Shown here one piece after another: positions 7,504 through 51,898 of a DNA stretch of 64,000 bases (position 1 is its first letter; each line of letters opens with the position of its first letter). The notes below the pieces were generated by a model, which did no database searches, was not told the DNA's origin, and saw only the letters and a list, made by a program, of their open reading frames with translations. The translations under genes and the position numbers were made by a program. This DNA is from Gimesia sp. (GTDB taxonomy: Bacteria; Planctomycetota; Planctomycetia; Planctomycetales; Planctomycetaceae): positions 124,001-188,000 of the forward strand of contig NZ_JAVJSQ010000010.1 of the NCBI RefSeq assembly GCF_040219335.1. Reading direction: 5' to 3'.

Positions 7504-8036
7504 TTTGCCCCATTCACCAACGCGGAATCAGCACGCAGGTGTAAAGCATCCATCAGATTTTTTCCCGATGGTAGACTGGGGGCCGTAGTATGATCCTCTG
7601 TTTGTGATTCAGAGTGTACAGGTTGCTTTCGGTCGGCGCTGACAATTTGGTTTCCTCCATTTTCTGGACCAAGAGGTGGTAGTCCACGGATCGCCCGCAA
7701 TTCGTCTACTTTGATAATCTGGGCTCGAATATCTGTCGCCAGACGCTTTTCGAGCAGATCTGGATCATCAATTTGGGTCGCTTCAATTTCGATGGTCAGG
7801 TTCCTCCCGAACTGGGGGGCGAGATGCTCGGTATCATCTTCCGCCAATAAATCCAGAATGGGTTGAACAGTCAGAGAAATGAACTGCTTTAAACTGGCGT
7901 AAAAAGCGGCATAACTTCCTCCGTCTGAGATACCTGCAGCAATTCCAGGGACTCCATGTAAAGCCAGAATCGCATCTCTAAATTCGACGAATGAGGCGTT
8001 GTCATCCTGTCGAAATCTGACGACAAATACTGACAT
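7500..8036 (-). pseudogene. Portal protein, C-terminal fragment (split by the inner prophage)
   Basis: The 178-residue frame starts at a chance ATG inside the prophage end. From residue 15 it reads SFVEFRDAILALHGVPGIAA, which continues the portal fragment at 50936-51898 exactly. That fragment ends REMDYNA, and joining across the shared bases ACAACGCCT gives REMDYNASFVEFRD in frame. This part corresponds to the portal stem and wing after the clip-side helix, ending in a hydrophilic tail. It contributes about 164 residues to an intact portal of about 484. There is no ribosome binding site before the ATG, so it is probably not translated in the lysogen. Confidence 0.88.
7994..8002 (+). other. 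attL core (9-bp direct repeat)
   Basis: The sequence aggcgttgt is identical to 50938-50946. On the minus strand it reads ACAACGCCT and lies in the codons for Asn-Ala in the portal gene. It marks the left crossover site of the prophage. Confidence 0.82.
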
Positions 8037-8116
8037 TGCACATCTAAAAAAACTGCTTCACATCCCCTGATCTTCCCACCCATGAAGACAAGTAGCGACA
8101 TTCAGCGAAACGCGGT

Positions 8117-8135
8117 TGCTACCTGGGCTGCTACT
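8117..8135 (+). other. Arm-type integrase repeats, left end
   Basis: Two direct repeats, TGCTACC (8117-8123) and TGCTACT (8129-8135), are spaced by 12 bp. The same pair occurs inside the right end at 50832-50849 in the same orientation. Tyrosine integrases with an N-terminal arm-binding domain use such short repeats flanking the core, and this integrase has that domain. Confidence 0.65.
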
Positions 8136-8199
8136 TTTCCAATTCTCATCCACTCAGGCACACCCAAAATTAAAAATCAAAAAAACTGAAAAACATTCT

Positions 8200-8260
8200 G
8201 TGACGTTATCTTACGTGAGCGTGCGCTTCCGTGACTTTACATGACGTTGTGTGACGTGAC
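8200..8260. repeat. Cluster of TGACGT/ACGTGA repeats (operator or iteron candidate)
   Basis: Within 60 bp there are TGACGT at 8201, TTACGTGA at 8211, CGTGAC at 8230, TGACGT at 8242 and GTGACGTGAC at 8251, in mixed orientation. The cluster sits between the left attachment arm and the first plus-strand gene, just upstream of a promoter candidate. A repressor, Xis or replication-initiator binding array is plausible. Nothing else in the window repeats this motif at this density that I noticed. Confidence 0.5.
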
Positions 8261-8295
8261 CCATTTAACCGCTTCTCCGGTGATGCTGAACCGGA

Positions 8296-8323
8296 TTGAC
8301 GCTCCTAAAAATGAGTGTATCTT
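8296..8323 (+). promoter_or_regulatory. Candidate early promoter
   Basis: TTGACG (8296-8301) and TATCTT (8318-8323) are separated by 16 bp, a sigma-70-like arrangement with 5/6 and 4/6 matches. It lies about 50 bp upstream of the first early gene at 8375 and directly after the TGACGT repeat cluster, a typical place for a regulated early phage promoter. No experimental support. Confidence 0.4.
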
Positions 8324-8374
8324 TCCTCGTGTTGTGAGTGACATTTAACGACTGGAAAGGAAAGCGAGTCAGAA

Positions 8375-8620
8375 ATGACAACAGCAACTGAAAGCCCGGC
8401 AGATAAAAAATATGGATACACTTTCGGCTGTGATGGTGTTGTTGATTACTCGACAGCAGCTCGCATGCTTGGCGTCTGCAAACGGACTGTTGAGCGATAT
8501 GTAGAGAACCAGGATGAGTTCAAGCGTTTCAGAGTCGGGCGTCATCCAGGCAAGAAGAATCAGAAGTGTGTGATTTGTCGTCGGTCTCTCAATGACTACA
8601 TACGCTCGATAGAAAAATGA
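8375..8620 (+). CDS. Small helix-turn-helix protein (excisionase/MerR-like fold)
   Basis: The 81-residue protein is preceded by AGGAAAG. Residues about 25-60 read VDYSTAARMLGVCKRTVERYVENQ, the form of a winged-helix Xis/MerR-type DNA-binding domain (helix, turn, recognition helix). The later KCVICRRSLNDYI segment matches the DNA-binding-module style in which an RV/IRRSDLDAYI-type tail ends the domain. It is the first gene of the plus-strand early operon and sits beside the left attachment site. It could be a regulator or a recombination directionality factor; a second Xis-like gene lies beside the integrase. Confidence 0.62.
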   Translation: MTTATESPADKKYGYTFGCDGVVDYSTAARMLGVCKRTVERYVENQDEFKRFRVGRHPGKKNQKCVICRRSLNDYIRSIEK

Positions 8621-8714
8621 TGCTCACCAGCTGAGCGAACCGCTAATTTTCAAAACTACATTTTATTTTCCGGGATCGGGGTACGCGCTGATCCAAGCCG
8701 AAAGGGGAGAACCA

Positions 8715-9299
8715 ATGCTGATTTCAAAAGAGATGTTTGATATCGCCCGGGTGGCGGAGAAAGAACCGAATGAACGCAACTCAATCGATTGTGTGAGGTT
8801 TGAAACGGATGGTCTCCGCAATGAAGCGACGGCAACGAATGGCCGATGTGCCATTCTCGTGAAGTGGCCAGCGCTGGAAGAGACTGAAGGGGCAGAGCTC
8901 TATCTGATCCCCGCTTCCGATTGCCTGCAGATCAAACCAGGCATCAAGCGATTGGGCAAACTGGCAGCCGCCCGGGTGTCTGACTCCGAAGATGGATTCA
9001 CCCTGTTTCAGGACTTCAATCTGATCGGGTCTGTCTTCCGCAGCCCGACCACAGGCAGGCCGTTTCCCAAAGCCAGGAAACTGATTGAGGATCGTGTCTA
9101 TTCAGAGAATTCGGGGCCGTCTCATTCATTCAACATTTCACAGCTCAACAAACTGCTATCCACCATCGAAAAAGTCATCGGTCCTGATGAGATCGTTGAT
9201 TTGCAATTCGACGAGAGTGAAGGCGGTGGCACGGTACTGGTAGTTACCCATCACGGAACGAAGATCATTGAATCCATCCTGATGGGCATCTCTTCGTAA
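8715..9299 (+). CDS. Possible sliding-clamp-like DNA replication protein
   Basis: The 194-residue protein is preceded by a strong AGGGGAG ribosome binding site. Several segments resemble bacterial DnaN and phage clamp-like proteins: NEATATNGRCAILVKW (compare TDGHRL...), a TTGRPFPKARKLIED segment (compare FPDW...), and SFNISQLNKLLSTIEKVIG. It lacks the length of a full three-domain clamp (about 370 residues). The resemblance is by eye and the call is tentative. Position at the head of the replication/recombination operon supports a DNA-metabolism role. Confidence 0.45.
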   Translation: MLISKEMFDIARVAEKEPNERNSIDCVRFETDGLRNEATATNGRCAILVKWPALEETEGAELYLIPASDCLQIKPGIKRLGKLAAARVSDSEDGFTLFQDFNLIGSVFRSPTTGRPFPKARKLIEDRVYSENSGPSHSFNISQLNKLLSTIEKVIGPDEIVDLQFDESEGGGTVLVVTHHGTKIIESILMGISS

Positions 9300-9344
9300 C
9301 CGTTTTTTCAACATCCATTTTTACGCAATTTTCAAGGAGGAGTC

Positions 9345-9590
9345 ATGCTGGTTCTGAGTCGAAGTCGAGACGAAAAGATTTTCATTGGGGACAACATCAC
9401 GGTCACTGTCGTGGATATCCGGGGCGATAAAGTCCGGTTGGGGATCGCCGCACCGACCGACATTCCCGTGCATCGTGAGGAAGTTTACGAAGCGATTAAG
9501 CAGGAACAACGGCTCAAAGCCGAGCAGGAAACTGATTACGAACGGATGTGGCGTGAATGGGCAGAAAACAAAGGCAAACCGTGCCAATGA
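9345..9590 (+). CDS. csrA: CsrA/RsmA-family translational regulator, phage encoded
   Basis: The 81-residue protein begins MLVLSRSRDEKIFIGDNITV and carries the C-terminal IPVHREEVYEAI motif. This includes the RNA-contacting residues L4, R6 and the conserved Arg of VHREE. After the 60-residue CsrA fold it has an extra charged tail. CsrA dimers bind GGA motifs around ribosome binding sites and block or alter translation. A GGAGG ribosome binding site precedes the ATG. A copy inside the early operon of a prophage suggests control of host or phage mRNAs (inference). Planctomycete chromosomes often carry their own csrA, so this is probably an extra copy. Confidence 0.92.
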   Translation: MLVLSRSRDEKIFIGDNITVTVVDIRGDKVRLGIAAPTDIPVHREEVYEAIKQEQRLKAEQETDYERMWREWAENKGKPCQ

Positions 9591-9656
9591 CTGGACGGTG
9601 GCAATAAGGCTGCGACCGCTACTGCAAGAAGCAACTGGCCACGACGTCAGAGCGGA

Positions 9657-9681
9657 GCCCCCAGGATGCGGGGCATTTTTT
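9657..9681 (+). terminator. Rho-independent terminator candidate after csrA
   Basis: GCCCC (9657-9661) pairs with GGGGC (9670-9674) across an 8-nt loop and is followed by ATTTTTT. The stem is short but GC-only. It may partially separate csrA from the downstream recombination genes. Confidence 0.55.
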
Positions 9682-9703
9682 AACACGAGGGAGGTAACCA
9701 GAA

Positions 9704-9934
9704 ATGAAATACAGGGGATCAGGCAGGGGCGTTCGACGGCGTTGCCACTGCGGTACTTACTACACATTTTATCGGAGATATCAGAATCATGAATGCACCA
9801 GCTGCAGCCTCGGATCACTTAGAAAGCGTAACGAAAAACGGACACGGAATCAGCCAGAGTCAATCGATTCAGGAGATATCGAAAGCCCTGTTCTCCGTCC
9901 AGTCCCAGATGATGTCAGTGACAAAGGATGCTGA
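9704..9934 (+). CDS. Small zinc-ribbon-like protein overlapping the ERF gene
   Basis: The 76-residue frame has a strong GGGAGGTAA ribosome binding site before its ATG. Its first part is basic and contains RCHCGTYYTFYRRYQNHECTSC, two cysteine pairs that could bind zinc. The C-terminal 45 residues overlap the ERF gene at 9789 in a different frame, which is unusual. The useful part may therefore be the N-terminal half. No homologue recognised. It is included because of the ribosome binding site and paired cysteines. Confidence 0.42.
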   Translation: MKYRGSGRGVRRRCHCGTYYTFYRRYQNHECTSCSLGSLRKRNEKRTRNQPESIDSGDIESPVLRPVPDDVSDKGC

Positions 9935-10703: not shown

Positions 10704-10716
10704 GACGTAACCAACG

Positions 10717-11867: not shown

Positions 11868-11891
11868 TTCAATCAAAAGGATTCTGGACCA

Positions 11892-39151: not shown

Positions 39152-40749
39152 TCAGCACCGAAGAAAAACAGCGACTCTGTCAGCAGTGCAAATTTAAACG
39201 GAATTACCTCTGCCGAAGGCACGGTGAAGAGTGGAAAAAGGTCTGTGAAACTCGCCTGGTCTGTGAGGGGTGGGGCAATGTTCCGCGGGTCCCTGAACAG
39301 ACGAAAGAAACCGAACAGAAGAAAGAGCCCAGTTTTGGGGTGGCCATCATTATTACCAGCCACAATTACGGCAGGTTTCTGGCCCAGTGCCTGGAAAGCA
39401 CACTCAACCAAAGTTGTCCGGCGTCTGAAATCATCGTCGTTGATGACTCCAGCACGGATAACACGCAAGAGGTTGCCGAGTCATTCAGTGACCGCGGTGT
39501 CCAATACCTGAGAGTGGAGAACCGCAGCGCCCATTTCAGCCGTAGGGACGGCGTGGTGGCTACCAGGTCGGATATCGTGTTGTTTCTCGATGCAGACGAC
39601 ATGTTGCCCCCAGACTTCATTGAGTGCGGTCTGAGAGAGTTTATCAATCAGGACGTGGGGGTGGTCTACTGCGACCACCAGAACTTCGGGATTTACAACC
39701 ACAGAACGAACTTTCCTGACTTCTCAGTCGATCGACTGTTCAAGGGGCCGAATTTCGTCAGTACCTGTTCTTTCGTGAGACGGGAGGCGCTGACACTGAC
39801 AGACGCCTGGAACATCGACGTTGATGAACGCTACATGCCTGAGGATTACTGGCTGTTTCAACGCATTGCGATGGACGGTTGGGACTTCAGAAAGCAGACG
39901 GCCGTGCTGCAGTACCGCCGGCACAAGGAGTCAATGTCTCAGACTCGCGTGACGATGGACCCGGGAAAGGTTTATTATCTGTCCCATGGTCTCACGTATC
40001 ACAATATTACGCTGTTCGTTCCGCTGTCCGGTCGCAAATGGATGTGGCCCCGCTTCCGTGATTACCTCGAGCGCCAGACTTGGCCCCATGATCAAATCAA
40101 GCTGATCCTGATGGACACCAGCCGCGATGTTGTGTTTTCCGCAATGGTCAGGGGGTGGGTTGCTAACTGCGATTATAAAGACGTGCGACATGTGCAGCTG
40201 GATGTCGGCACGCCGGGACTGGCGGACCTGAACCGCAGGGAGCGGAAACACTATGATGAGGTCAGGCTGTCGATGTGCAAAATCTATAACCAGCTGCGGT
40301 CGATGCTGGAAACGCCGTATGTGTGGATTCTGGAGGATGACATCATCCCCCCTGACGATGTTTTAGACCGACTTATGAGAAACTTCACTCATGAAGTCGG
40401 GGCCGTCACAGCGCCGTATCAGTCACGCTACAACGGCGAGCCGATTGTCTGGGTTGAAGATGGCGTGAAGAACGTGAAGCCACCGAAGAAAGCGACACCA
40501 CCGGGACCAGGTGAGCCACAGGTAACCGAAATGCGGGGGTCTGGGTTTGGCTGTCTGGTGACACGCTCAGAGCTGATCAAACAGCATGTGTTCGCCCTGC
40601 CCAGCAGCCAGAACGACTATGACCCGTATTTCTTCACCGGGATGGGAGACCACTGGAAGCGACTGTGTAACTGGTCGTGTGCCTGTGAGCATTGGGGGCA
40701 GGATCGGGTTTACCTAATTGCAGAAAATTTAAAGAATTTTATCGCATAA
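39148..40749 (+). CDS. Two-domain glycosyltransferase (GT2 plus second GT-A-like domain)
   Basis: The 533-residue protein starts inside the previous stop (ATGA). Residues 1-35 hold a cysteine motif (CQQCKFKRNYLCRRHG, then CETRLVCEGW). Residues about 65-290 are a GT2 domain: IIITSHNYGRFLAQCLES, IIVVDDSSTDNT, and VLFLDADDMLPPD with the DAD metal site. From about 285 a second GT-like domain follows, with LEDDIIPPDDVLDRLM (an EDD motif). It could glycosylate virion tail proteins or alter the host surface. The plus-strand late operon ends here. Confidence 0.82.
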   Translation: MISTEEKQRLCQQCKFKRNYLCRRHGEEWKKVCETRLVCEGWGNVPRVPEQTKETEQKKEPSFGVAIIITSHNYGRFLAQCLESTLNQSCPASEIIVVDDSSTDNTQEVAESFSDRGVQYLRVENRSAHFSRRDGVVATRSDIVLFLDADDMLPPDFIECGLREFINQDVGVVYCDHQNFGIYNHRTNFPDFSVDRLFKGPNFVSTCSFVRREALTLTDAWNIDVDERYMPEDYWLFQRIAMDGWDFRKQTAVLQYRRHKESMSQTRVTMDPGKVYYLSHGLTYHNITLFVPLSGRKWMWPRFRDYLERQTWPHDQIKLILMDTSRDVVFSAMVRGWVANCDYKDVRHVQLDVGTPGLADLNRRERKHYDEVRLSMCKIYNQLRSMLETPYVWILEDDIIPPDDVLDRLMRNFTHEVGAVTAPYQSRYNGEPIVWVEDGVKNVKPPKKATPPGPGEPQVTEMRGSGFGCLVTRSELIKQHVFALPSSQNDYDPYFFTGMGDHWKRLCNWSCACEHWGQDRVYLIAENLKNFIA

Positions 40750-41370
40750 AATTGATTTCAAACTCTCTTTTCCCACATCGCCATAAAGGTTCTGAGAGAT
40801 GGGGGTCACTACTGAAACATTAAGATCAGCGAGAGATTCTATAGAAGATTCCAGGTCGATCTGTTTGGTATTTTCTGGAGTCTCAAGTCCCACTGCCTCT
40901 TTTGCGCTATAGACGACCTGCTGAAAAGTTTTACGAAACGCATTCTTCAAACTATCCACTGACCATTCCGAATAATGAGGATTCGTACGATTCGTGACGG
41001 TATTTCTAATATGAATCGTAGGGTCCAACCAGATCAAAATTGTACTCTGTATGATATCTGGATCCTTTTTCCTGACATAGACAGGAATCGTTGTAGAAGA
41101 AAACTGCCAACGATGAACGATAGTGTCACACTCTCCATCACCACTATGAATCAGCGAGTCGATATCTTCCTGTAGGTGAGATAGTTCCCTTTTTAATTGT
41201 GTGCTTACAGGGTCCGGAAAATGACATTTTCCGACGAGTCCAAACTTTGTCATAAAGTATTTCTGCTGAGGTGTCCGCTTATCAGCAGTTTGCAGATTCG
41301 CAGCTTTTAACTTTCTAATTAAGTGATGCTTTCCAACTGCAGAATAACCGCAAACATGAATTATCCTCAT
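40729..41370 (-). CDS. P-loop-like NTPase/kinase-type protein
   Basis: The 213-residue protein is read from ATG 41370. A Walker-A-like GYSAVGKHHLIRKL (residues about 8-21) has His where Ser/Thr is usual. Later TILIWLDPTIHIRNT could be a Walker B or lid. It resembles small nucleotide or adenylate kinase-type P-loop proteins, but the family is not recognised. The 3' end overlaps the convergent glycosyltransferase gene by 21 bp. It is the last gene of a minus-strand operon with SMEK, HNH and zinc-ribbon genes. Confidence 0.5.
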   Translation of the reverse strand: MRIIHVCGYSAVGKHHLIRKLKAANLQTADKRTPQQKYFMTKFGLVGKCHFPDPVSTQLKRELSHLQEDIDSLIHSGDGECDTIVHRWQFSSTTIPVYVRKKDPDIIQSTILIWLDPTIHIRNTVTNRTNPHYSEWSVDSLKNAFRKTFQQVVYSAKEAVGLETPENTKQIDLESSIESLADLNVSVVTPISQNLYGDVGKESLKSILCDKIL

Positions 41371-41416
41371 ATGCAATAGTTCTCACTTTCAACCAATTTG
41401 AAGATGGCAATCTTTT

Positions 41417-42469
41417 TCAGGATGAAACCTCAGGTAGCTCTACTCCAAAATCTGAAAAATCTAAAAATACAATTGCTCTCTGAAAACTGAGATTTCCAGC
41501 TTCAATGAAATCAACTATGTAAGATAGGGTAGAATATTTTTGTTCGTCAATATAAATATAAGGACTTTCATATGCGGCTTCTTCGTAATCAGGAATATTG
41601 ATTCTTATCAAATCGTACTCTTGAAGCATTATCAATTCTTCTCTAACAATTATAGGAGTGTTCTCACAATACCTATTGATTCGGTTTAAATTTACTCTCA
41701 ATGAGTCTTCGAACGATCCCTGCTCCCTGCGCTCCATTAAAATTGAGTAGAATTCACGCGTAATACGAGGAAGCTTCGACAAGCATTCAGAGTATTCAGT
41801 CATGATTGTTATGACTTCTTCTCGACTGCATGGTGGATCAAAATTGTTTTCTTCCAAATACTGAAATAGAAAACTAAAATCTGATATTTTAGGCCTAGGT
41901 ATTACTTCTATGAGATTAATCAATGAAGTTGGATATTCGCCATCGGTATTAGGTATTTCTAATTCTATTAATACTTTTGTGCATTCTCTCACGATGTAAT
42001 TGTAGATTGTGTGTAAGGTATCTAGTTCTAGGTCAATTAGTTTTTTGGCCAGGGTGTTAATGTCCCAGATGTTATCCCTTGAAAAAAAATCTGCTTGTTC
42101 GGTTGTTTCGTCTAATGTGTATGTTTTCTGTTTATGACCAATAATAAAAACGATAAGTTTTTGAGGTGGTGTTTCCAACTCAAGAGCTTTCTGAACGGCA
42201 TCATTTACCTTGTCAGAACTTTTGAGTGATGTGATTTGAATTGCTGTTCCTGAAGACGAATCCTGGAGATCCAAAGCTGGAACGTTACTGACATCTTGAT
42301 TCAAATTTGTCAGGTTCAAATTCAACACATGATTGAGAATTGTTTTAAAGAAACTCTCCAGGTGTGTATTGATATCTAATAAATTTAATTTCCCTCGGAT
42401 TTCGACCTGTTGAGCGATCGTGCTTAACTGGTCAACAATTTCCCCGATTAAATAACCTCGTGTAATCAT
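41417..42469 (-). CDS. SMEK-domain protein (predicted antiphage defence)
   Basis: The 350-residue protein begins MITRGYLIGEIVDQLSTIAQ. It shows the SMEK-domain pattern: VEIRGKLNLLDINTHLESFF, then LNLTNLNQDVSNVPALDLQD and AIQITSLKSSDKVNDAV, then a LIVFIIGHKQKTY strand. This domain is found at the N-terminus of proteins associated with defence islands, and its order of acidic and IQxTS residues recalls a restriction-endonuclease fold. The C-terminal half (from about 180) is unrecognised. It is 12 bp downstream of the HNH gene and base composition is AT-rich compared with neighbouring phage genes. Confidence 0.72.
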   Translation of the reverse strand: MITRGYLIGEIVDQLSTIAQQVEIRGKLNLLDINTHLESFFKTILNHVLNLNLTNLNQDVSNVPALDLQDSSSGTAIQITSLKSSDKVNDAVQKALELETPPQKLIVFIIGHKQKTYTLDETTEQADFFSRDNIWDINTLAKKLIDLELDTLHTIYNYIVRECTKVLIELEIPNTDGEYPTSLINLIEVIPRPKISDFSFLFQYLEENNFDPPCSREEVITIMTEYSECLSKLPRITREFYSILMERREQGSFEDSLRVNLNRINRYCENTPIIVREELIMLQEYDLIRINIPDYEEAAYESPYIYIDEQKYSTLSYIVDFIEAGNLSFQRAIVFLDFSDFGVELPEVSS

Positions 42470-42481
42470 TTAACACCTGAT

Positions 42482-43270
42482 TCATTTTAATGCGATTATT
42501 CGTTTCAATTCATCGACACTGATTAAATTGTCTTTATACCGATGTACCATCATATGGCAATTCGCACACAGAACAGTCAAATCGGTTTTAGGGTCGGTGC
42601 GACGAATACCTTTAGACTCGCTCAGTGGATCGAGATGATGCACTTGGATATAACCAGCACCATGGCTTCCATAAACTTCAGCAAAGTTGAAACCACAGGC
42701 TTTACAGGTCGTACCATGATGTTCGATGGCAGCGTCTCGTAGTTCTCTTTCTCTTTTGTATTCAGTTCGGGTGACAACTCGGGCCTCACCTTCAAGACTG
42801 CTGAATTGGATTGCGTCCAAATCCTGAAAATCATCATTGGTATTTTCTTCGATGTATCCGTTTTCGATTGACGCTAAGGACAGGATTTTAAGAAAGACGT
42901 CTTTTTCGATCTGGCGAGCGCTACCTCTCCAGTAATTGCTTTTTTTACTCTCTGGAATCTGCTCAATGTAGGAACCGTTTATTTTCGCCAGGACCGGCCG
43001 CTGGAATGGTTTATAATCAGTGATTTCAGCGAAGAAGCTGTTCTTAGAATCGATATCTGGGCGTACTTCTCCTGTACGAGCTATTCCAAAATAATGTGGA
43101 TGATCAGAGAGTCGCTCAGGTCGATACTTGGCTTTCGTCAATTTCCCTTTGTAGTAGACGATTTCGGTACCGGGTTTTATTAAACCCTGGTAAATCGCTG
43201 GGAAGTGGTAGGCTTCTCCTGTGACATCATCCCATTGGGATTCGTCATTTTCAGTGATGACTGTGTAAAT
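42482..43270 (-). CDS. HNH endonuclease with N-terminal PUA/EVE-like region
   Basis: The C-terminal HNH domain shows TTCKACGFNFAEVYG, YIQVHHLDPLSE (the HH of the motif) and TDLTVLCANCHMMVHRY. The frame stays open upstream of the first ATG (43141) and encodes a conserved-looking AYHFPAIYQGLIKPGTEIVYY followed by HYFGIARTGEV. This pattern is found in front of HNH domains in predicted modification-dependent nucleases. I therefore extend to ATT 43270, which has AGGAG seven bases upstream (262 residues). It is a predicted restriction nuclease, 12 bp before the SMEK gene. Confidence 0.72.
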   Translation of the reverse strand: MYTVITENDESQWDDVTGEAYHFPAIYQGLIKPGTEIVYYKGKLTKAKYRPERLSDHPHYFGIARTGEVRPDIDSKNSFFAEITDYKPFQRPVLAKINGSYIEQIPESKKSNYWRGSARQIEKDVFLKILSLASIENGYIEENTNDDFQDLDAIQFSSLEGEARVVTRTEYKRERELRDAAIEHHGTTCKACGFNFAEVYGSHGAGYIQVHHLDPLSESKGIRRTDPKTDLTVLCANCHMMVHRYKDNLISVDELKRIIALK

Positions 43271-43290
43271 TGTGACTCTCCTGATCTCAT

Positions 43291-44856
43291 TTAATTCTTA
43301 AACTTAAAGTTCAAAGGCTGCTTCTCTGTGAATGCTCGGGGATAGAGAAACAGGTTGAATTTTGTAGCCTTCGGATCAGGCTTTTCAAAATAGAGCGTAT
43401 CTTCGATAGTTGAATCCGGTTCGATTGTTTGGGGATCGAGTTTCACGGGAACCGATTCATAAGCCTTTCCGAGGTCATCAGTCAACAGGTCCCCGGAGCT
43501 GTAATACTTGCTCTGCCAGGTGCTGTAGGTCTGCTTAGATCCACTGTTGTTGGTGAGTTTCAAGTGGATCGCCAGGCATTCTTTGCCCTCGAACTCTTCA
43601 ACCGCTACTTTCGTGATTTCTGCCTTGATGCCGCCAGCTGTTGAAACATTATTGAATTCAGGTACAGGTGAAGCTTCTGTTTTGGGGGCTCCTCTTAACA
43701 TGACGGGCTTTTCTGAGTCAGCTTGATTTTTCTCACTCTGAGTTTTTGCTTCCGCAATCAACTCCTTAGAGCAGGCGAATTTCAGTAGAACTGGCTCGCC
43801 TCCCGTGAAGTCTCTTGAGTAAAGATTCATTTTAAATTTGCTGGCTTTGCCGACCGGGCGTTCGAAGACATAAAGGTCCTCGACTGATTCACCAGGATAG
43901 AGCTCTTTATATCTAACACTGCCAACAATCTTCTGAAATGTTGGGCTCTTGGCGACATATGAGTTTCCGTGCTCATCAGTCAACAGTGGGTCATTCCCAT
44001 AACGAGCGCTTTCCCATGGTGAATAGGAATATTTTTTTACTTCACTGTTATTGGTGATTTTCAATTTCACCAGCAGGAATTCCTCTTCGCTTGTGCCAGT
44101 TTGTCGATCGGCGATGTCCTTAAACTGGATCTGATTGATGTCGGTCCCCAGGATTTCTACGGTCACATCGCCCACAGTCGCTGTCAGTCCCTTGCCTGCC
44201 CACTTATCAGCTGGTTTCTTGGGTTGATCCATTGGGGCTGGTAAGGCCTGCTGCTGTTTCTGATTTTTGTCATTTACAACTAAGGCATTCTCCATTGCCT
44301 GCCGTCTCTCTCTGGCTTGATTAGCAGTATCAACAGCCTGACTGACCGCAGCGACACTGCCGAAAAGAGCCAGGAAAAAACCAGCAGAGAAAAACAGTGC
44401 GATCGCAGACAGTGCACCACCCGCGATCGAATATCCAATGCCTGAGCCATTACGTGAGATTCCCAGGAAGATCCCAATAACCGCCATCAGGGCGCTGATG
44501 CTACCGAGAACGAATGCGAGAATGTTTACAAACGGGATCCAGCAAAGCAGGAATGCCAATATTCCGAGAATCACAGACGCGATTCCCATACTGTTTGCCG
44601 CGCGCGATTCCTGCTTGATGTTCACAGACACATTCGGAGAGTGGGGCTGCTGATAAACTGTAGGAGACGGTGGGGGAGACTGATAATGCGCAGGCACTTC
44701 CTCAGGTTTAACGATTTCAGGTGTCGTTCTGACGATCGATGTCGAGTGAGGTACGGTGATTTTCTCGCCGCACTTATTACATGCCCCCTGTTTTCCAGCT
44801 GCTGAGTCCTTAACTTTAATCGAGTTCCCACAGTGTGGGCATTCAAATCTGATCAT
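43291..44856 (-). CDS. Zinc-ribbon, multi-TM protein with two DUF4352-like domains
   Basis: The 521-residue protein is read from ATG 44856 with GAGGG upstream; a longer frame to 44934 lacks support. It has an N-terminal zinc ribbon (MIRFECPHCGNSIKV...CNKCGEKI), a Pro/Gln-rich linker, about three transmembrane helices (about residues 90-175, including ASVILGILAFLLCWIPFVNI), and two copies of a DUF4352-type Ig-like domain (EFLLVKLKITNNSEVKKYSY and ECLAIHLKLTNNSGSKQTYS). It is probably an envelope-anchored protein. It heads the minus-strand operon with HNH, SMEK and P-loop genes. Confidence 0.68.
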   Translation of the reverse strand: MIRFECPHCGNSIKVKDSAAGKQGACNKCGEKITVPHSTSIVRTTPEIVKPEEVPAHYQSPPPSPTVYQQPHSPNVSVNIKQESRAANSMGIASVILGILAFLLCWIPFVNILAFVLGSISALMAVIGIFLGISRNGSGIGYSIAGGALSAIALFFSAGFFLALFGSVAAVSQAVDTANQARERRQAMENALVVNDKNQKQQQALPAPMDQPKKPADKWAGKGLTATVGDVTVEILGTDINQIQFKDIADRQTGTSEEEFLLVKLKITNNSEVKKYSYSPWESARYGNDPLLTDEHGNSYVAKSPTFQKIVGSVRYKELYPGESVEDLYVFERPVGKASKFKMNLYSRDFTGGEPVLLKFACSKELIAEAKTQSEKNQADSEKPVMLRGAPKTEASPVPEFNNVSTAGGIKAEITKVAVEEFEGKECLAIHLKLTNNSGSKQTYSTWQSKYYSSGDLLTDDLGKAYESVPVKLDPQTIEPDSTIEDTLYFEKPDPKATKFNLFLYPRAFTEKQPLNFKFKN

Positions 44857-44890
44857 GTGGCCCTCAAATCTAAGCGTGCCTGTTACGATG

Positions 44891-44919
44891 TTGAGTATCT
44901 TGTCCAGACTATACATAAT
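44891..44919 (+). promoter_or_regulatory. Candidate promoter for the ChaN-like gene
   Basis: TTGAGT (44891-44896) and CATAAT (44914-44919) are separated by 17 bp, near sigma-70 consensus, 36 bp before the GTG start at 44956. It lies in a 99-bp divergent intergenic region that must also hold the promoter for the minus-strand operon. Confidence 0.5.
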
Positions 44920-44955
44920 ATAGGGCAATATCAAGAATAAACCGGGAGGTGAAAA

Positions 44956-45660
44956 GTGCTCCGATTCTGTCTGTTATCATTGCTCCTGTTTCCCGCAACT
45001 ACTTTTGCAGAAACCACTAAGATCATTCACATTCTGAACTGGCATTACGTTGAATATGACGAATTCGCAGTCGACCTGCGGGCCAATAGTGACAAGCCTG
45101 TTTCAGATGCGCAGGTAACCAAAGAATATTTGGAATTCCTGGACGATGTTCGTGAGATCCAGAAGCAGCAGATGGAACTGCTGCGGACATTGATCAAAAA
45201 GCACAACCTGAAAGCGGTCTATGTCGAAGGGCTCACAGAAAAGAACCACAAAGGGATCTTAGAATTCCTGGAGTCGATGAAGAAATACGAACGGACCAGG
45301 AAGCCACCAGCAGATCGATTAGACCGTCAGATAGAAGCTCTGCACCAGCTGAGCCTGCTTCACGTTGGAGCAGCCCCGCGGTTGGTCATGTCAGGAGAAC
45401 TGAAAACGATCCTGCCGGCAGAAGACTCAAAAGCGATGGAAGCGGCGAATCCTGTGCGGCCGGATGGCACTGTGGTTTACGATCTGAAGGTGGCCACAGA
45501 ACGGGAAGACGCGATAGCACGCAACCTGCTTAAAGCTGAGGGTGTGGCTGTGATTGTTTTAGGGGGTGGGCACGATCTGGCTGATAACATTAAACGGGTT
45601 GGAGGCAATTGCAAATACGAACGGGCGATAGTGCCGAAATACAAAAAAGCCTCAGAGTAA
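44956..45660 (+). CDS. Secreted ChaN/TraB-like protein
   Basis: The 234-residue protein starts at GTG 44956 with GGGAGGTGA upstream. A signal peptide (1-18, FCLLSLLLFPATTFA) is followed by a domain with KAVYVEGLTEKNH and a late VAVIVLGGGHDLADN segment. The strand-helix order and the final G-G-G-H are like ChaN/TraB-type folds. Function is unknown. It is an accessory gene of the prophage, divergent from the HNH/SMEK operon. Confidence 0.55.
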   Translation: MLRFCLLSLLLFPATTFAETTKIIHILNWHYVEYDEFAVDLRANSDKPVSDAQVTKEYLEFLDDVREIQKQQMELLRTLIKKHNLKAVYVEGLTEKNHKGILEFLESMKKYERTRKPPADRLDRQIEALHQLSLLHVGAAPRLVMSGELKTILPAEDSKAMEAANPVRPDGTVVYDLKVATEREDAIARNLLKAEGVAVIVLGGGHDLADNIKRVGGNCKYERAIVPKYKKASE

Positions 45661-45812
45661 CCAGTGACGACATCCCTGAAGAAGACGTCCGCAGCTGGCT
45701 GAAGCGTCACAGTTTCCGCTGGTCCCGCTATCACGGAGCCTGGCAAAGGCATCTGAACCAGCATGGGAAGAATTACGTCAGAATGATCGTTGAGTGGTAT
45801 TCAGGGAGGTGA
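45609..45812 (+). CDS. Small phage/plasmid-type C-terminal-module protein
   Basis: The 67-residue frame starts at TTG 45609, with GGAGG four to eight bases upstream, and overlaps the previous gene by 52 bp. It contains EEDVRSWLKRHSFRWSRYHG and AWQRHLNQHG. The F-RWS---GAWQR-L pattern occurs at the end of many phage and plasmid proteins. It could be a free-standing copy or the remnant of a longer gene. Confidence 0.5.
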   Translation: MQIRTGDSAEIQKSLRVTSDDIPEEDVRSWLKRHSFRWSRYHGAWQRHLNQHGKNYVRMIVEWYSGR

Positions 45813-45813
45813 C

Positions 45814-45856
45814 AAAAAAAGGCAGTCGGAGTGAAAATCTCACGACTGCCTTTTTT
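45814..45856. terminator. Bidirectional Rho-independent terminator
   Basis: GGCAGTCG (45821-45828) pairs with CGACTGCC (45843-45850). A run of A precedes and a run of T follows, so it terminates on both strands. It separates the convergent small gene ending at 45812 and the minus-strand operon ending at 45887. Confidence 0.88.
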
Positions 45857-45886
45857 ATTTGTATCTAATTGATTGAATACGTTGGT

Positions 45887-46330
45887 TCACTCAATTGACT
45901 CTGGATCAGCAATTTCATCTGCATTAAGAATGCGAGTTTTTTTTGCAATTTTTTTGCCTGCTATTTTAGGATAGTCTAAGCCGCCCTCAGCTTTTAGCAA
46001 GCAGTGACCTTCATCGGAATCTGTCTTATCCAATGAAATCTCTAGCCCAAGTGCCCTTGCATCTCCGACTTTAAACAAAGCTACATTCCAGCCATCTGGT
46101 TCTATACCCTGATCTTTAAGTTGATCCAATAAATCTTGTGGCTTTGTTACTTTCAGAAGCGAACAAGACAGATGCTCCTCGTTTGGCCTTGTGCTCATAG
46201 AAGATGAGCTAGCTCGAAAAGTGCCATCTTTATTTTTAGCTATAGTATCCCAACCAGGTTTAGAAGGACTAATCCGTCTGATTAGATAATCATCATCTGA
46301 AATGTTATCTTCAATGTCTGAAGCTCCCAT
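45887..46330 (-). CDS. Hypothetical protein, third gene of the TIGR04255 operon
   Basis: The 147-residue acidic protein (DDDYLIRRISPSKPGWDTIA, CSLLKVTKPQDLLDQLKDQG, GHCLLKAEGGLDYPKIAG) is not recognised. It starts 10 bp after the preceding gene in the operon and ends at a bidirectional terminator. A toxin/immunity-like or accessory role is possible but not shown by the sequence. Confidence 0.6.
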   Translation of the reverse strand: MGASDIEDNISDDDYLIRRISPSKPGWDTIAKNKDGTFRASSSSMSTRPNEEHLSCSLLKVTKPQDLLDQLKDQGIEPDGWNVALFKVGDARALGLEISLDKTDSDEGHCLLKAEGGLDYPKIAGKKIAKKTRILNADEIADPESIE

Positions 46331-46340
46331 TCATCAACAG

Positions 46341-46811
46341 TTACCACTGAGTAAGGAACTGGGCTATGACATCAAGGTTTTTAGCTACACCTTCGCAATC
46401 TTTGGTGCTATTTTCTTCATCGATGTAGGCGTAGCGAATCACACGGTTAGGATCTAGCTCTACATCAAGCTCACGAGTGTAATCTTCTAAGTCCCAGGAA
46501 AGTGCAACATTTCCTGCAGGTGACGCTGCAATTCTTGGGCAACTGACACCAGTGATTGATGAGAGCGCATTCATCACTTCCATCGCAAACTGAATAGAGT
46601 CAGGGTTAACTGGCTTCGCGCCATAGCTATCCCAGTTTGCTGGCAAATCACGAAGCTTCCAGATGTTGATAATACACTGCTGTAGCCACTGGACAGGTTC
46701 GTTTCTTTCTGCAAGCAAGCCTTCCCCGGTAATACCAGCACTAGCTATTAAGCTTTCCGTGGAAGTTAATGTACTTGTTCCATCGATTTCTAGGCTTGTT
46801 GGTGGCGTCAT
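46341..46811 (-). CDS. Hypothetical protein with LPANWDSYGA motif, TIGR04255 partner
   Basis: The 156-residue protein is read from ATG 46811, two bases after the TIGR04255 stop. It contains IWKLRDLPANWDSYGAKPV and later DLEDYTRELDVELDPN. I recall the W-DSYGA motif in short proteins encoded beside TIGR04255 genes, but its function is unknown. The tight coupling suggests they act together. Confidence 0.65.
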   Translation of the reverse strand: MTPPTSLEIDGTSTLTSTESLIASAGITGEGLLAERNEPVQWLQQCIINIWKLRDLPANWDSYGAKPVNPDSIQFAMEVMNALSSITGVSCPRIAASPAGNVALSWDLEDYTRELDVELDPNRVIRYAYIDEENSTKDCEGVAKNLDVIAQFLTQW

Positions 46812-46813
46812 GA

Positions 46814-47629
46814 TTAAAACCGTTTCCAACGTTCTATTTGAACGTGCTCTTCTGTGAGGCTTACAAAACTCTTAACAACCCATAAGTGAGCGAGATCCAT
46901 ATTTTCTAGAAGTGAATCCTCTTCTTTATGAATTACTCGTCCCGTGATTTTGAGCAAGATAAATTTCTTTCGTTCTTTATCTTGATTGATATTCGCTTCA
47001 ACGTAAAGTCTGCCCTGTTCATCACCTATTACATAAACTCGATTATAGGCTACGAGTTCTGGGAGATCTTTCAACCAACTATCTGAGGTTTCCCATTTCA
47101 GGCCTTTAAAGCTGGATTCGAAAAACTCTATAACATCCTCTTCAGGCTCGGGGTAGATGTGATTTATATATGTCACTTCGCAAAGGTTAGGGAGTACCTT
47201 CCCAATTGAGTGGTCGTTCACGAACTTAGAAAAATTTTCAAACTCTTCTATAAAGACCGGCCGATTTGAGTCATAGTGAGGATATTCAGTCCCCTCTTTT
47301 CCTGCCCAGTTAAAAGCAAATCTGTCTGGTTGCAATTGAAGCATCATGCTTCCGTTATCTGGCTGTCTATACCATACTCTCTGCGGACCTGGACCCTGAT
47401 CACCTGTGATAAACTGGAATGCTCCTTTAGGCATTCGCCCACGGGGAAAGGTTTCTACCACCGGATCGAGACGTCCCCTGTCAATAACCTCTGGGAACCT
47501 GGCTTTTACAGTCTCGTAGAACATCCCAAAGTGAGCTGTTTTAAAATCTTGAAGCTCATCAAATTGTACTGTTAGCACCGTCTCCACAACTGGTGGATTC
47601 TTGAATTTTGGGCAATCTACTTTACTCAT
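46814..47629 (-). CDS. TIGR04255-family protein
   Basis: The 271-residue protein matches the TIGR04255 pattern: FKNPPVVETVLTVQFDELQD at the N-terminus, RVWYRQPDNGSMMLQLQPDR with FAFNWAG in the middle, CEVTYINHIYP near residue 150, and later GRLYVEANINQD. The family is widely scattered in bacteria, and its role is unknown. It heads a three-gene minus-strand operon in an AT-rich accessory part of the prophage. Confidence 0.78.
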   Translation of the reverse strand: MSKVDCPKFKNPPVVETVLTVQFDELQDFKTAHFGMFYETVKARFPEVIDRGRLDPVVETFPRGRMPKGAFQFITGDQGPGPQRVWYRQPDNGSMMLQLQPDRFAFNWAGKEGTEYPHYDSNRPVFIEEFENFSKFVNDHSIGKVLPNLCEVTYINHIYPEPEEDVIEFFESSFKGLKWETSDSWLKDLPELVAYNRVYVIGDEQGRLYVEANINQDKERKKFILLKITGRVIHKEEDSLLENMDLAHLWVVKSFVSLTEEHVQIERWKRF

Positions 47630-48279
47630 ACTGAGTTTAATTTCCTCTCGCAGGTCAAATTATTTCGTGAGCCCAAGAGTTTGTAATGGAATTTTGCTAT
47701 AGCTACTTATTAATACGTTATAGACACACATTATGAGAACTCAGGCCCCATAATAGTATTAGTATTTCGGTCATTTTCCACGATAGGTATTGGTTGCAAT
47801 CATTGTTATATCACAATTCTACACATATTATGTAATATTGGTCAATGTCTAGATGTTGACTATAGATGCTGTATCTCTTTTATTTTCAATTGTTTACATT
47901 GTCATGTCGTATTAGAGAGTAAGCCAGAATTTAAACTATGTAATTGTAAGCTCCAAAGATAAGACGCCTAATCTATAAAAATCGAATTGAAAGATTTCTT
48001 TTTTAAAATCTTTACCTGAACACCCCGAAAAAGTTTCCATTTTTGACTTGCGGCGACCTGTACGCACGTTATATTGGGAACATCACACCTACTCCCATAT
48101 CCGTCTGGCGACGGCCGCGTGAGACCCGCTGAAGGTGGTCTCAGTTGATTATTCCAATCCGCGAAATTCTCTCTGCCCCGTAGTGAACCCAGGGCAAAAT
48201 CCAAACCAGGGAAGTCATCATCCGCGAAGAGCGTACGCGCGTTTGGTGGGTCGCCATCGGTACGCGCTGAGGAGATGGG
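47630..48279. other. AT-rich 650-bp intergenic region
   Basis: I see no gene here. It must hold the promoters of the TIGR04255 operon (minus) and the winged-helix regulator (plus). The first 330 bp are very AT-rich. The last 200 bp are GC-rich and contain a small hairpin GAGACC/GGTCTC (48121-48142) and two GTACGCGC motifs (about 48228 and 48259). A plus-strand frame at 48135-48329 overlaps the regulator gene and has no support. Confidence 0.45.
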
Positions 48280-48531
48280 ATGCCATACATCCTACGGAAG
48301 ATCAGCCATCGGCAATTCAAGTTTTATGATTTCATCCGGAACTACTACCGGAGCTGCAAAGGCTGGCCGACATTGGAAAACATCTGCTGTTACTTCCACG
48401 CCAGCCAAACACGCACACTGGTGACCCTGGAGATACTCAAGCGCCATCACTTCATTGAAGATGTGGGCGGACGCTACCAGGCGATCGATCGTAATCCGCT
48501 CGTGATGCCGTTCAGAGGGATTGTGAGATGA
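48280..48531 (+). CDS. LexA-like winged-helix DNA-binding protein
   Basis: The 83-residue protein has the fold of the LexA N-terminal domain: ISHRQFKFYDFIRNYYRSCK, GWPTLENICCYFHASQTRTL, then LEILKRHHFIEDVGGRY. There is no autocleavage domain. The GAGGAGATGGG site precedes the ATG. It is the best candidate for a prophage regulator, as no CI-type repressor was found. Confidence 0.68.
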   Translation: MPYILRKISHRQFKFYDFIRNYYRSCKGWPTLENICCYFHASQTRTLVTLEILKRHHFIEDVGGRYQAIDRNPLVMPFRGIVR

Positions 48532-48544
48532 ACATACTTGATAA

Positions 48545-48961
48545 TTATTTTTTACGCTCAGCTTCAAAGGTATTGAAAGCTTCTTCGATTTTTTTGAATG
48601 CTATTTCGACCGTTTCTTTTAACTGTAGATATGCTGGGTCCTCTTGTGACTCGTAGTATTCACGATCTTCCTCAGCATATTTTTTCTTCAACCAGTCATC
48701 TATCGCATTCATACATGCCCGTTTAGACGAATAGAGGTCTTGGACATCAGAATTTGAAAAAGCATCTCCCTGGACAGCCCAGGTTCTCCCATCAATAAAT
48801 GTTAGATTTTCAAATTTCCAGTCTTCTCTAGCGTCCCAAATTAAATATCCACGATAAGCCCACTCACCAGGGTTTTCAGTTCGAGTTGCATGATATTCAA
48901 ATTCAGTCATTTTTGATTTATCTATTTTTGATAAGTGAGACTCGACCACAAGAAAGTTCAA
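48545..48961 (-). CDS. Hypothetical protein
   Basis: The 138-residue protein (EFEYHATRTENPGEWAYRGY, FIDGRTWAVQGDAFSNSDVQ, acidic coiled coil at the C-terminus) has no recognised family. It overlaps the upstream RHH gene by four bases, so the pair is translationally coupled. A toxin-antitoxin-like arrangement is possible but there is no toxin motif. Confidence 0.58.
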   Translation of the reverse strand: MNFLVVESHLSKIDKSKMTEFEYHATRTENPGEWAYRGYLIWDAREDWKFENLTFIDGRTWAVQGDAFSNSDVQDLYSSKRACMNAIDDWLKKKYAEEDREYYESQEDPAYLQLKETVEIAFKKIEEAFNTFEAERKK

Positions 48962-49217: not shown

Positions 49218-49332
49218 TATAATAACGGTCGTGTACGGAGACCGATTGAGTACAAGTGAATCAACGGCGGAGGATCGTCGTTTTCTGAGCCTATGCGGGT
49301 GCGCCGTACACGCGCCTCATAGGCTCTTTTTG
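49218..49332 (+). ncRNA. Candidate structured small RNA with terminator
   Basis: TATAAT (49218-49223) is followed about 105 bp later by a 9-bp stem GAGCCTATG (49287-49295) and CATAGGCTC (49318-49326) and TTTTT, a typical terminator. The 5' segment CGTGTACGG (49230-49238) is exactly complementary to CCGTACACG (49304-49312) in the loop of that terminator. No reading frame is supported. The -35 region is weak. The transcript would be divergent from the RHH gene. Confidence 0.5.
49287..49331 (+). terminator. Rho-independent terminator, plus strand
   Basis: Stem GAGCCTATG/CATAGGCTC with an upper part rich in GC, followed by five T. It ends the candidate small RNA. Confidence 0.8.
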
Positions 49333-49377
49333 TTTGGAGACGTGAGAATGGACGGATAGGGACAGCGCATGAAAAAA

Positions 49378-49405
49378 CCCTCAGAGAGCTGCAACTCTCT
49401 GAGGG
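49378..49405 (-). terminator. Rho-independent terminator, minus strand
   Basis: CCCTCAGAGAG (49378-49388) pairs perfectly with CTCTCTGAGGG (49395-49405), loop of 6 nt. On the minus strand it is followed by six T. No minus-strand gene of the prophage lies upstream of it. It would stop transcription entering from the outer cluster through the right end. Confidence 0.82.
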
Positions 49406-49458
49406 CGAAATAGTCAATTCATCGTTTTTCAGGAATCTTATGGTAGGGATTTCCTTCA

Positions 49459-49716
49459 ATGACTGACCATAACATTAGTCATGATAGAGACGGTACGTCA
49501 AGAGTAAAAGCCCGAAATTCAACTTCGACGGGAAAAACGTTCCCTGCAGAGGGGGACCACGATGTTGAATACTGGGCAAATATTTGGGGAGTCACTCCCC
49601 GTTGTATCAGAGACTGGGTGAAGAAATTCAACATTCCGGTCTGGGGTCCGAGTAATGATAACTTCATGATCAATGCCGAAGACTTCAGATCTGTGTTTGA
49701 GAAACGGACGATCTGA
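49459..49716 (+). CDS. Xis-like helix-turn-helix protein
   Basis: The 85-residue protein lies 3 bp before the integrase gene. Residues about 37-60 (YWANIWGVTPRCIRDWVKKF) form a MerR/excisionase-type winged-helix domain, followed by NFMINAEDFRSVF. Its place makes it the probable recombination directionality factor of this prophage. Confidence 0.68.
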   Translation: MTDHNISHDRDGTSRVKARNSTSTGKTFPAEGDHDVEYWANIWGVTPRCIRDWVKKFNIPVWGPSNDNFMINAEDFRSVFEKRTI

Positions 49717-49719
49717 GTC

Positions 49720-50820
49720 ATGGCAAAAAAACGCAGGCGTTCCAATGGGGAAGGATCGATCTACCAGGTTGACGGCAAATGGGTTGCGCAGATCAGCTAC
49801 TACAAAGACGGTAAGCTGAAGCGGCCAAAGCGTATTTGTAAGAAGCATGCTGATGCTGTTGCCAAGCTGGAAGAGCTCCGGAAAGATGCCTTGCATCTCG
49901 ACATGGATGAACAGCACCACACGGTAGAGAGTTACATAAATGAGTGGCTGTTCGATATTGAAAACAGCGACCGCGCTTTCAGCACTCTCAAGGGCTATCG
50001 AGGGATAGTTAATAATTACATCATTCCGAAACTGGGAACAGTCAAACTTCGTGAGCTGAAAGCCTCTAAAATCAGAAGGTTCATCCATTCTCTTCAGGAT
50101 TCCGGCGTTGGTTCTCGTGCTGTGGAGATGTCTTATTTCTGTCTGAACAGTGCATTAAATCAGGCCTATAAATCAGACATCATTTTGAAGAATCCCTGTG
50201 TGAGCATTCAACGTCCGGTGCATAAGCAGAAGGAAGCGATACCATTCACCAGGGAAGAACGGGAGCTGATCCTCCAGGCTGCGGATGGAGATTATTTCTA
50301 CCCGCTTTACAAGTTCATGCTCGCCACCGGAATGAGATCATCAGAAACGTTCGGTCTACACTGGGATGATATTGATTACCAGACGAGAACGATTCATGTG
50401 CAGCGCCAGTACATCTTTGGAGATTACGCGAAGCTGAAATCGAAAAAGAGCGATCGATTTCTAGATCTCACACCTGGTTTAGAAGAGGTGTTGAGGCTCC
50501 AGAGAGAGAAAATGAACGAAGCCGGTTTCGGTGATCGCAAATACGTCTTCTGCGGAAAACGCGGGGGGCACCTCAACAGCAGTACCTTCAATCACCAGAT
50601 CTGGAAGCCATTCCTGGAAGAAGCCGGCGTTACTCCCCGCGGACTGCATCACCTGAGGCACACGTTCGCATCAGAGCTGCTGGCGGAAGGGGCGGATCTT
50701 CTGGTAGTATCTGCTCTGCTCGGTCATTCATCACCGACAGTAACACTGAAAATCTACGCTCATGCGATGCCACCAAAGCGGTCGCAGGTGGCTGGTCTGA
50801 TCCAGACGATTTTCGGTTAA
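49720..50820 (+). CDS. int: Tyrosine-family phage integrase
   Basis: The 366-residue protein has an N-terminal arm-binding domain (GEGSIYQVDGKWVAQISYYK), a SAM-like core-binding domain (about 65-165) and the catalytic domain. Catalytic residues are seen as the first Arg in ATGMRSSETFGLHWDD (about 206), HHLRH (about 310-314), LLGHSS (about 337) and the nucleophile in KIYAHA (about 346). It integrates the prophage by recombination between attP and the portal-gene attB. It starts 3 bp after the Xis-like gene and ends about 120 bp from the right core site. Confidence 0.94.
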   Translation: MAKKRRRSNGEGSIYQVDGKWVAQISYYKDGKLKRPKRICKKHADAVAKLEELRKDALHLDMDEQHHTVESYINEWLFDIENSDRAFSTLKGYRGIVNNYIIPKLGTVKLRELKASKIRRFIHSLQDSGVGSRAVEMSYFCLNSALNQAYKSDIILKNPCVSIQRPVHKQKEAIPFTREERELILQAADGDYFYPLYKFMLATGMRSSETFGLHWDDIDYQTRTIHVQRQYIFGDYAKLKSKKSDRFLDLTPGLEEVLRLQREKMNEAGFGDRKYVFCGKRGGHLNSSTFNHQIWKPFLEEAGVTPRGLHHLRHTFASELLAEGADLLVVSALLGHSSPTVTLKIYAHAMPPKRSQVAGLIQTIFG

Positions 50821-50831
50821 TCTGGCCTGGC

Positions 50832-50849
50832 TGCTACCTTGTTGCTACT
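50832..50849 (+). other. Arm-type integrase repeats, right end
   Basis: TGCTACC (50832-50838) and TGCTACT (50843-50849), spaced 11 bp, match the pair at 8117-8135 inside the left end in the same orientation. Confidence 0.65.
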
Positions 50850-50935
50850 TTCTGCTGAATTAGAAAGGCGGAAAAATAGACGCAAAGGCAAATGCAGTAA
50901 GGCGATACGCTTAATCGAATAGAGACACCAACGGA

Positions 50936-51898
50936 TTAGGCGTTGTAGTCCATCTCCCGGGGGGTGGCTGTAAGAGAGACGACTTGCTCACCGGTTGTAA
51001 AGATCGCCTTGCCCGTATTTTCAGTACCCCCATATTTTTGATCAAACATCGCGGCTGCGGCTTCAAGTTCTTCTCTGGTTGGGCGCATATCCTTTCCGCA
51101 GGTGACGACAATTGATGGATCTGCTCCATTATTCATCTGAGCCCAACGAGCTGCATCGATCTGATTGGCTGAGTCGATCCAGCGGGCACCCGCGCTGACA
51201 GGAGATTGTCCGTCATCCTGGTAAAGTGGATGAGGCCACCGCGTTATCTGCAGCTGTGAAAGGGGGATGACTTTCCCCAATACCTGCTGTAGTAGGTTGT
51301 GTGAACTGGAGTAACTTGAAAAGGAGTCAAGATCATAGCGCGACGAAGGTGTCTGTATTCGATATCCACCATCAGGCAAATCTGTTGAGGGGGCAACTGG
51401 CGACGCGATCGCGGTGGGAATTACATAACGTTGAACCGTCTTCCCAAACTGATTAGGAACATTCCAGACGATACTTGCCCCAGTCAGTTGCAGTTGCAGG
51501 ACTCGCTCATAGCGAAAAGCGGCACCTGATTGAGTGGGATTTGGATGTTTGAGAATCTGGCAAAGTGCATGATCGTTTGACAGGGGAATAGACGCACCAG
51601 TTTCACCAGCATATAGACTTCGGGAAAGTCCGTATCCAGAGTCCATTCTCAAGTGGCGTCGGAACAATTTCTGATCGGAATTATTCACAGTGTCATCGTA
51701 GACAGCCACCGAAGCCTGCATGGCTTGCAGGCAAATTGCCCGAATCGCAACAAACGTCCAACCAGTGAACTGTTCTGATTCCTCTCGATGGTTACTATGC
51801 CATTTGCCTGGTTGACCGGTTCCGAGTGCGGTTCGTAGCGCGACTGAGAACCGATTTGATTTGAATCGTGCGGCAAGCTGTTTGAAGGGGTTCCACAT
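50936..51898 (-). pseudogene. HK97-type portal protein, N-terminal fragment
   Basis: The 320-residue fragment starts at ATG 51898 with AAGGA upstream. It shows HK97-family portal features: TGWTFVAIRAICLQAMQASV, a DHALCQILKHPNPTQSGAAF segment, QLTGASIVWNVPN, and a late MNNGADPSIVVTCGK with GKAIFTTGEQVVSLT. It ends REMDYNA with a stop formed by prophage DNA. The missing part is at 7500-8036. Joined, the protein is about 484 residues, a normal portal length. Confidence 0.88.
50938..50946 (+). other. attR core (9-bp direct repeat)
   Basis: aggcgttgt is identical to 7994-8002. On the minus strand the portal frame runs through it and meets a TAA immediately after the Ala codon, just inside the prophage. 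Confidence 0.82.

Follow-up and report, generated by a model that had tools for sequence, protein, structure and literature searches.

Several described systems resemble the locus treated here. The term active lysogeny (also phage-regulatory switches) comes from Feiner et al. 2015, quoted in PMC6036120. In E. coli, attB sites lie in prophages and are apparently derived from host chromosomes (PMC8112680). The RcGTA-type gene transfer agents (GTAs) of Alphaproteobacteria are mostly inherited vertically (PMC10883770) and are under purifying selection (PMC9836097). Literature matched by title and start of abstract, with few subscription papers included, contained prophage-in-prophage work, and none of the matches listed described a prophage in a GTA or in a portal gene, or a planctomycete GTA. 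We analysed 64,000 nt from a genome of the aquatic bacterium Gimesia (contig NZ_JAVJSQ010000010.1, positions 124,001-188,000 of the forward strand). This whole stretch is called the window, and all feature coordinates are window positions (Table 1). We confirmed that a 42.9-kb prophage is inserted cleanly in the HK97-type portal gene of a head-tail cluster located in the host chromosome.

The prophage is flanked by two exact copies of the 9-mer AGGCGTTGT (in portal sense ACAACGCCT, on the minus strand), which occurs nowhere else in the window. Only 0.31 copies were expected there; at least two copies were obtained in 2 of 100 shuffles, and a shared run of at least 9 bp at the junction in 10 of 200,000 random position pairs from the window, ruling out a chance match. 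The empty site of the Gimesia genome G005 carries the same 9-mer, as expected for the core of a site-specific prophage; among the 15 of 16 relatives that were aligned at this site (G007 was left out) it was the only one with an exact copy, and G001 and G012 differ by one base. Compared with G005, the portal-side flanks are identical at 190/200 and 187/199 positions (about 95%), and on the prophage side 49 and 51 of about 200 positions agree, so that identity falls to chance level at both junctions. Together, the 9-mer pair, the drop in flank identity and the random-pair test indicate that the insert has been delimited correctly at each end and that the predicted rejoining is correct. The first-pass annotation of this DNA had placed a prophage inside a portal gene and had predicted that its removal would rejoin the two fragments in frame across a 9-bp repeat, giving a portal of about 484 residues. 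This held: G005 reads through the site with the same 9-mer, the portal is 484 aa long in G001, G005, G009 and G012, and removal at the 9-mer would leave the arrangement of G005.

The two portal fragments match consecutive parts of Phage_portal (PF04860) and thus represent one portal, although the C-terminal fragment alone scores under the Pfam cut-off. They are the only Phage_portal matches in the whole 7.93-Mb genome, where the Pfam search gave no second portal of this family. The comparison with related genomes lacking the insertion, which the first-pass annotation had proposed, showed the N- and C-terminal parts adjoining without an insert in all 16 other Gimesia genomes. The frame is open to about residue 477-485 in 14 of them; the G016 portal changes frame at about residue 294, and that of G004 (L035) has an in-frame stop after residue 363 in a gene that otherwise aligns and whose companion head genes are open. 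At the right junction of the prophage, the final base of the 9-mer and two bases of prophage DNA make up a stop codon; on the left, the open reading frame (ORF) of the C-terminal fragment starts within prophage DNA. As the portal is interrupted after residue 320, where the junction supplies a stop codon, and the rest has no native start, no packaging-competent heads would be expected in the lysogen. The insertion should therefore disable the portal and the cluster, which is probably switched off. That the prophage disables its target, another suggestion of the first-pass annotation, is a fair reading because the stop overlaps the end of the 9-mer and no second gene of the Phage_portal family is present.

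The interrupted cluster occupies window positions 337-8036 and 50936-53653 (also loci L028 and L118). Its locus has the order AsnRS, esterase, terminase, portal, symporter, aminotransferase, CxxCxxCC protein, probable protease, capsid, and head-tail and tail genes; three cellular genes thus divide it, and the symporter is encoded on the opposite strand. The terminase, portal, capsid, adaptor and tail proteins are phage-like, and packaging, head and tail genes are found in the chromosome, as in a GTA. No replication gene was detected among the cluster ORFs scanned, a scan that did not cover every ORF. The prophage integrase is the only PF00589 integrase on the contig (C10), in a search aimed at PF00589 and not at other recombinase types.

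The cluster is a genus-wide feature. The N-terminal part of the portal was present in 17/17 Gimesia genomes, with weak matches in 5 of 42 other genomes searched. The terminase was found in 16/17 Gimesia genomes and in none of 153 other genomes of the order (E<=1e-40); it was missed in G007 because the contig stops before it. The cluster is syntenic across the genus, with the same host neighbour genes. Trees of the host neighbours and of terminase plus portal (15 taxa) have 10 of 12 splits in common (at most 4 after label shuffles), and the host and capsid trees (9 taxa) all 6 of 6 (at most 5 after label shuffles). A portal 59% identical was also seen on a contig binned as Emcibacter (L132), in a compact terminase-portal-head-protease order; this is likely a mis-binning or a phage.

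Ratios of nonsynonymous to synonymous substitution rates (dN/dS), calculated with genes covered below 75% left out and the stop in the C-terminal part of the G004 portal read as X, were low. Between this genome and G001, G005 and G012 they were 0.09-0.11 for the terminase and 0.05-0.16 for the portal halves; the capsid gave 0.02 against G001. For the neighbouring host genes the range was 0.01-0.17. Over all pairs tested, the capsid ranged from 0.02 to 0.04, and terminase and portal lay at about 0.05-0.16 in every pair but one, the N-terminal part of the portal between G001 and G012 (0.24, at a dS of 0.05). The cluster thus shows the vertical inheritance and purifying selection that characterise GTAs. 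It is most likely a domesticated, GTA-like element and a candidate GTA, vertically inherited in all sampled Gimesia.

These observations bear on the proposal of the first-pass annotation that the prophage parasitises another element. Such a prophage-in-prophage arrangement, in which the cluster would be a mobile prophage in its own right and the phage lodged in it a parasite or competitor, is suggested by the phage-like proteins of the cluster and by relatives of its terminase, portal, protease and capsid at another locus in G016. It is contradicted by synteny, congruent trees, purifying selection and the absence of another PF00589 integrase on the contig, which indicate a single fixed chromosomal locus rather than a mobile element, and by the three cellular genes within the cluster. 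We therefore set the proposal aside as extremely unlikely. The second locus in G016 (C1:1924689-1932955) has a terminase 48% identical to that of the cluster, and a capsid, protease and portal 25-29% identical; it may be a prophage of the family that gave rise to the cluster.

The state of the cluster differs among species. In 7 of the 14 genomes that could be assessed (G001, G002, G003, G008, G009, G011 and G014) the terminase, portal and capsid are open at full length and head-tail genes are present, with about half of the protease aligning in G002 and G003. The other seven are broken: five by deletions, one by the portal stop in G004, and this genome by the prophage. Three genomes, G007, G010 and G015, were not counted, as the locus runs off the end of a contig in each. 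The capsid and its neighbours are deleted in G005, G012, G013, G016 and G006 (L029, L031, L037, L041 and L033, respectively). We discarded the idea that these five lineages carry further prophage insertions, since ORFs and flanks join the same downstream host genes, at which all five resume. The break points appear to differ among lineages, including the sister species G013 and G016. In each of the 15 relatives whose terminase was read, that gene is open, and dN/dS of terminase and portal is low also in pairs involving deleted lineages, which fits either recent losses or a separate, capsid-independent role.

With half of the assessable genomes broken and a frame change in the G016 portal, the cluster might be regarded as a degraded, functionless prophage remnant that is syntenic by happenstance and in which a second prophage landed by chance. 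However, the three main genes remain open in the other half, and the low dN/dS of the capsid, and of terminase and portal in all pairs except the G001-G012 comparison, would be unexpected for drift. We consider a remnant of this kind rather unlikely.

The end of the prophage integrase gene lies 117 bp from the core, placing the integrase beside its att site. The helix-turn-helix (HTH) protein at the other end has a weak match to a PHROG excisionase family (E=0.009) and a slightly better one to a small terminase family (E=0.003). Paired TGCTACCT...TGCTACTTT repeats lie between integrase and HTH genes, on both sides of the core, and may represent arm-type attP sites. The same order of integrase, attP and HTH is kept in the IMG/VR phage contig L125, where an integrase 60% identical is followed by an attP-like region with similar repeats and an HTH protein 54% identical. 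Among 392 genomes sampled from the phylum, the search for close relatives of the integrase (E<=1e-70) returned its own copy only; among phage records, 2692 matched the integrase, every one below 60% identity. Phage records searched with the N-terminal part of the portal gave no match, and a PDB search gave a single, weak one. In G014, a sister virion module, whose capsid-protease is 87% identical, is found some 95 kb away from an intact portal, and the 100 kb read there gave no match to the prophage integrase. As the sister module lies away from the portal and is without an integrase match, portal targeting seems to be tied to the integration module.

Taken together, the locus is very probably a site-specific prophage in the portal gene of a domesticated, GTA-like cluster that would act as a low-cost harbour. 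By this account, a temperate, siphovirus-like phage entered the portal gene of an inherited head-tail cluster by site-specific integration, its tyrosine integrase most likely recombining a 9-bp attP core with the identical 9 bp of the portal. The portal would thereby be truncated and the cluster presumably silenced in the lysogen, and an excision that rejoins the core would yield an open portal again, as in G005. The cluster is most likely maintained under selection in part of the genus and has been broken elsewhere in it, and would then offer a prophage a site of low cost; given this repeated breakage, a safe harbour of this kind most simply accounts for the success at the portal.

Several observations weigh against this account. 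Of the 15 relatives aligned, 12 differ from the 9-mer by more than one change, so conservation of this attB is not broad. The core is unmatched in L125; CAACGCCT occurs in its attP region but reversed relative to the integrase, for which reason it was dropped as support for the core. The nearest Gimesia integrases (39% and 35% identical) lie not at the portal but near a gene that, from our reading of the sequence, we take to encode a pyruvate kinase. The 2 of 12 splits that differ between host and cluster trees concern the group of four closest species to which this one belongs. The G+C of the cluster (0.48 and 0.53) exceeds that of the cellular genes in the window (0.46), and the GTA assignment is drawn from the genes of the cluster. 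Finally, the excised junction was found neither in the genome's own assembly nor in IMG/VR: the attP junction had 0 matches among IMG/VR viral contigs, and the assembly contains the two junctions only, with no empty attB elsewhere.

The first-pass annotation had likened the locus to active lysogeny, in which prophage excision switches a gene on; here, a reversible, non-lytic excision under some condition would turn on the portal and the particle cluster. Excision at the core would indeed restore the arrangement of G005, with the same core and flanks, and the prophage carries an integrase, attP-like repeats and an HTH protein that may be an excisionase. Both portal halves, the terminase and the capsid are still open, and their dN/dS resembles that of relatives, with no decay visible after insertion. 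However, a recent insertion accounts equally well for the lack of decay, the excised form was not seen in the searches above, parallel breakage in six other lineages shows that the cluster is dispensable, and no link was found between prophage regulation and the cluster. Regulated excision is accordingly quite unlikely, and it is simpler to read the cluster as a dispensable safe harbour. A reversible prophage switch of a planctomycete GTA, which would keep the host particle cluster silent while integrated and let a subpopulation make transfer particles once excised, is very unlikely; if it existed, the integrated prophage would remove a lytic competitor and an exit route for host DNA. The earlier interpretation is therefore partly supported: the anatomy stands, and the target is better seen as a fixed locus of the genus.

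Table 1. Features of the prophage, its attachment sites and the interrupted head-tail cluster (window positions).
Feature	Position	Strand	Basis and remarks
Prophage, about 42.9 kb, siphovirus-like, with lambda-type portal and terminase	8003-50937	.	Pfam/PHROG matches; identity to G005 ends at both borders
att core copy, left junction	7994-8002	.	Pairs exactly with 50938-50946; same 9-mer in G005 empty site
att core copy, right junction	50938-50946	.	Last base contributes to stop codon of portal N-terminal fragment
Putative attP arm-type repeat, far side of core	8114-8138	+	TGCTACCT...TGCTACTTT pair; putative arm role
Putative attP arm-type repeat, integrase side	50829-50851	+	TGCTACCT...TGCTACTTT motif common to 8114-8138 and L125 attP region
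Tyrosine integrase, 366 aa	49720-50820	+	PF00589 E=4e-29; PF14659 E=1e-8; adjoins right att site
HTH protein, possible excisionase or regulator	8375-8620	+	PF12728 (HTH_17); adjoins left att site
Portal N-terminal fragment, 320 aa	50936-51898	-	PF04860 31-216; PHROG portal; 95-96% identical to uninterrupted portals of G001, G005, G012
Portal C-terminal fragment	7500-8036	-	PF04860 224-321, below cut-off; PHROG portal; ORF start in prophage DNA, portal part 7500-8002
Large terminase of host HK97 cluster	51956-53653	-	PHROG terminase large subunit; 16/17 genus genomes, 0/153 others at E<=1e-40
Sodium:solute symporter within cluster	5869-7503	+	PF00474; same place in 14/16 relatives (G015 partial at contig end); absent in G004 and G010
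Class I/II aminotransferase within cluster	4326-5669	-	PF00155
CxxCxxCC (YkgJ-like) protein within cluster	3460-4152	-	PF03692
Probable head maturation protease of cluster	1700-3064	-	PHROG 617 and 11321 matches, neither named protease; name from gene position and match to N-terminal part of PHROG 617
HK97-type major capsid protein of cluster	337-1611	-	PF05065 E=4e-43; dN/dS 0.02-0.04

The prophage (G+C 0.51) has Pfam or PHROG matches for integrase, ERF, helicase, primase-polymerase, SSB, terminase, portal, protease-capsid, cement, major tail and tape measure proteins; ERF, helicase, primase-polymerase and SSB are encoded in its left part together with CsrA. It had been called complete, which its genes for integration, replication and recombination, head and tail bear out; no lysis genes were identified among the prophage ORFs scanned, again in a scan that did not cover every ORF. 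The CsrA-family regulator gene is located in the early region (9345-9590). A mostly minus-strand cargo region at 40729-48961 includes possible defence genes, namely an SMEK-domain protein that matches the PADLOC model Aga_REase-PNTD1-PNTD2 and an HNH protein close to type IV restriction models, besides other products without assignment. By eye, a secreted-looking protein of this region (44956-45660) is like proteins encoded in islands of G014 (L119:14388-15092) and G016 (L120:14885-15583), both of which carry an integrase. The large tail proteins of the prophage (34785-37349) and of the host cluster (L028:3429-6278) begin with a similar WIGGAPA stretch and hit the same PHROG tail families.

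Gene-splitting prophages and domesticated phage clusters, usually treated as separate subjects, meet in this case, which also points to a GTA-like head-tail cluster found throughout one genus of Planctomycetes. Since a single locus occurs naturally in four states (intact, deleted, stopped and split by a prophage), it becomes possible to test directly what such clusters cost and bring their hosts and why phages settle in them. As in active lysogeny (PMC6036120), a prophage lies in or at a gene that its excision or integration would change; unlike there, the gene hit is no cellular gene but a head gene of phage origin in a domesticated cluster, and active lysogeny is defined by excision as a switch, whereas here an anatomy has been read from sequence alone. 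The E. coli prophages in prophages (PMC8112680) likewise have attB within phage-derived DNA, but attB is here a native portal coding stretch in a vertically inherited locus. With the RcGTA-type GTAs of PMC10883770 and PMC9836097, the Gimesia cluster shares phage-derived genes, vertical inheritance and purifying selection. It differs from them in belonging to another phylum, in being halved by symporter, aminotransferase and CxxCxxCC genes and in being interrupted by a prophage, and the comparison is one of genes rather than of particles and DNA transfer.

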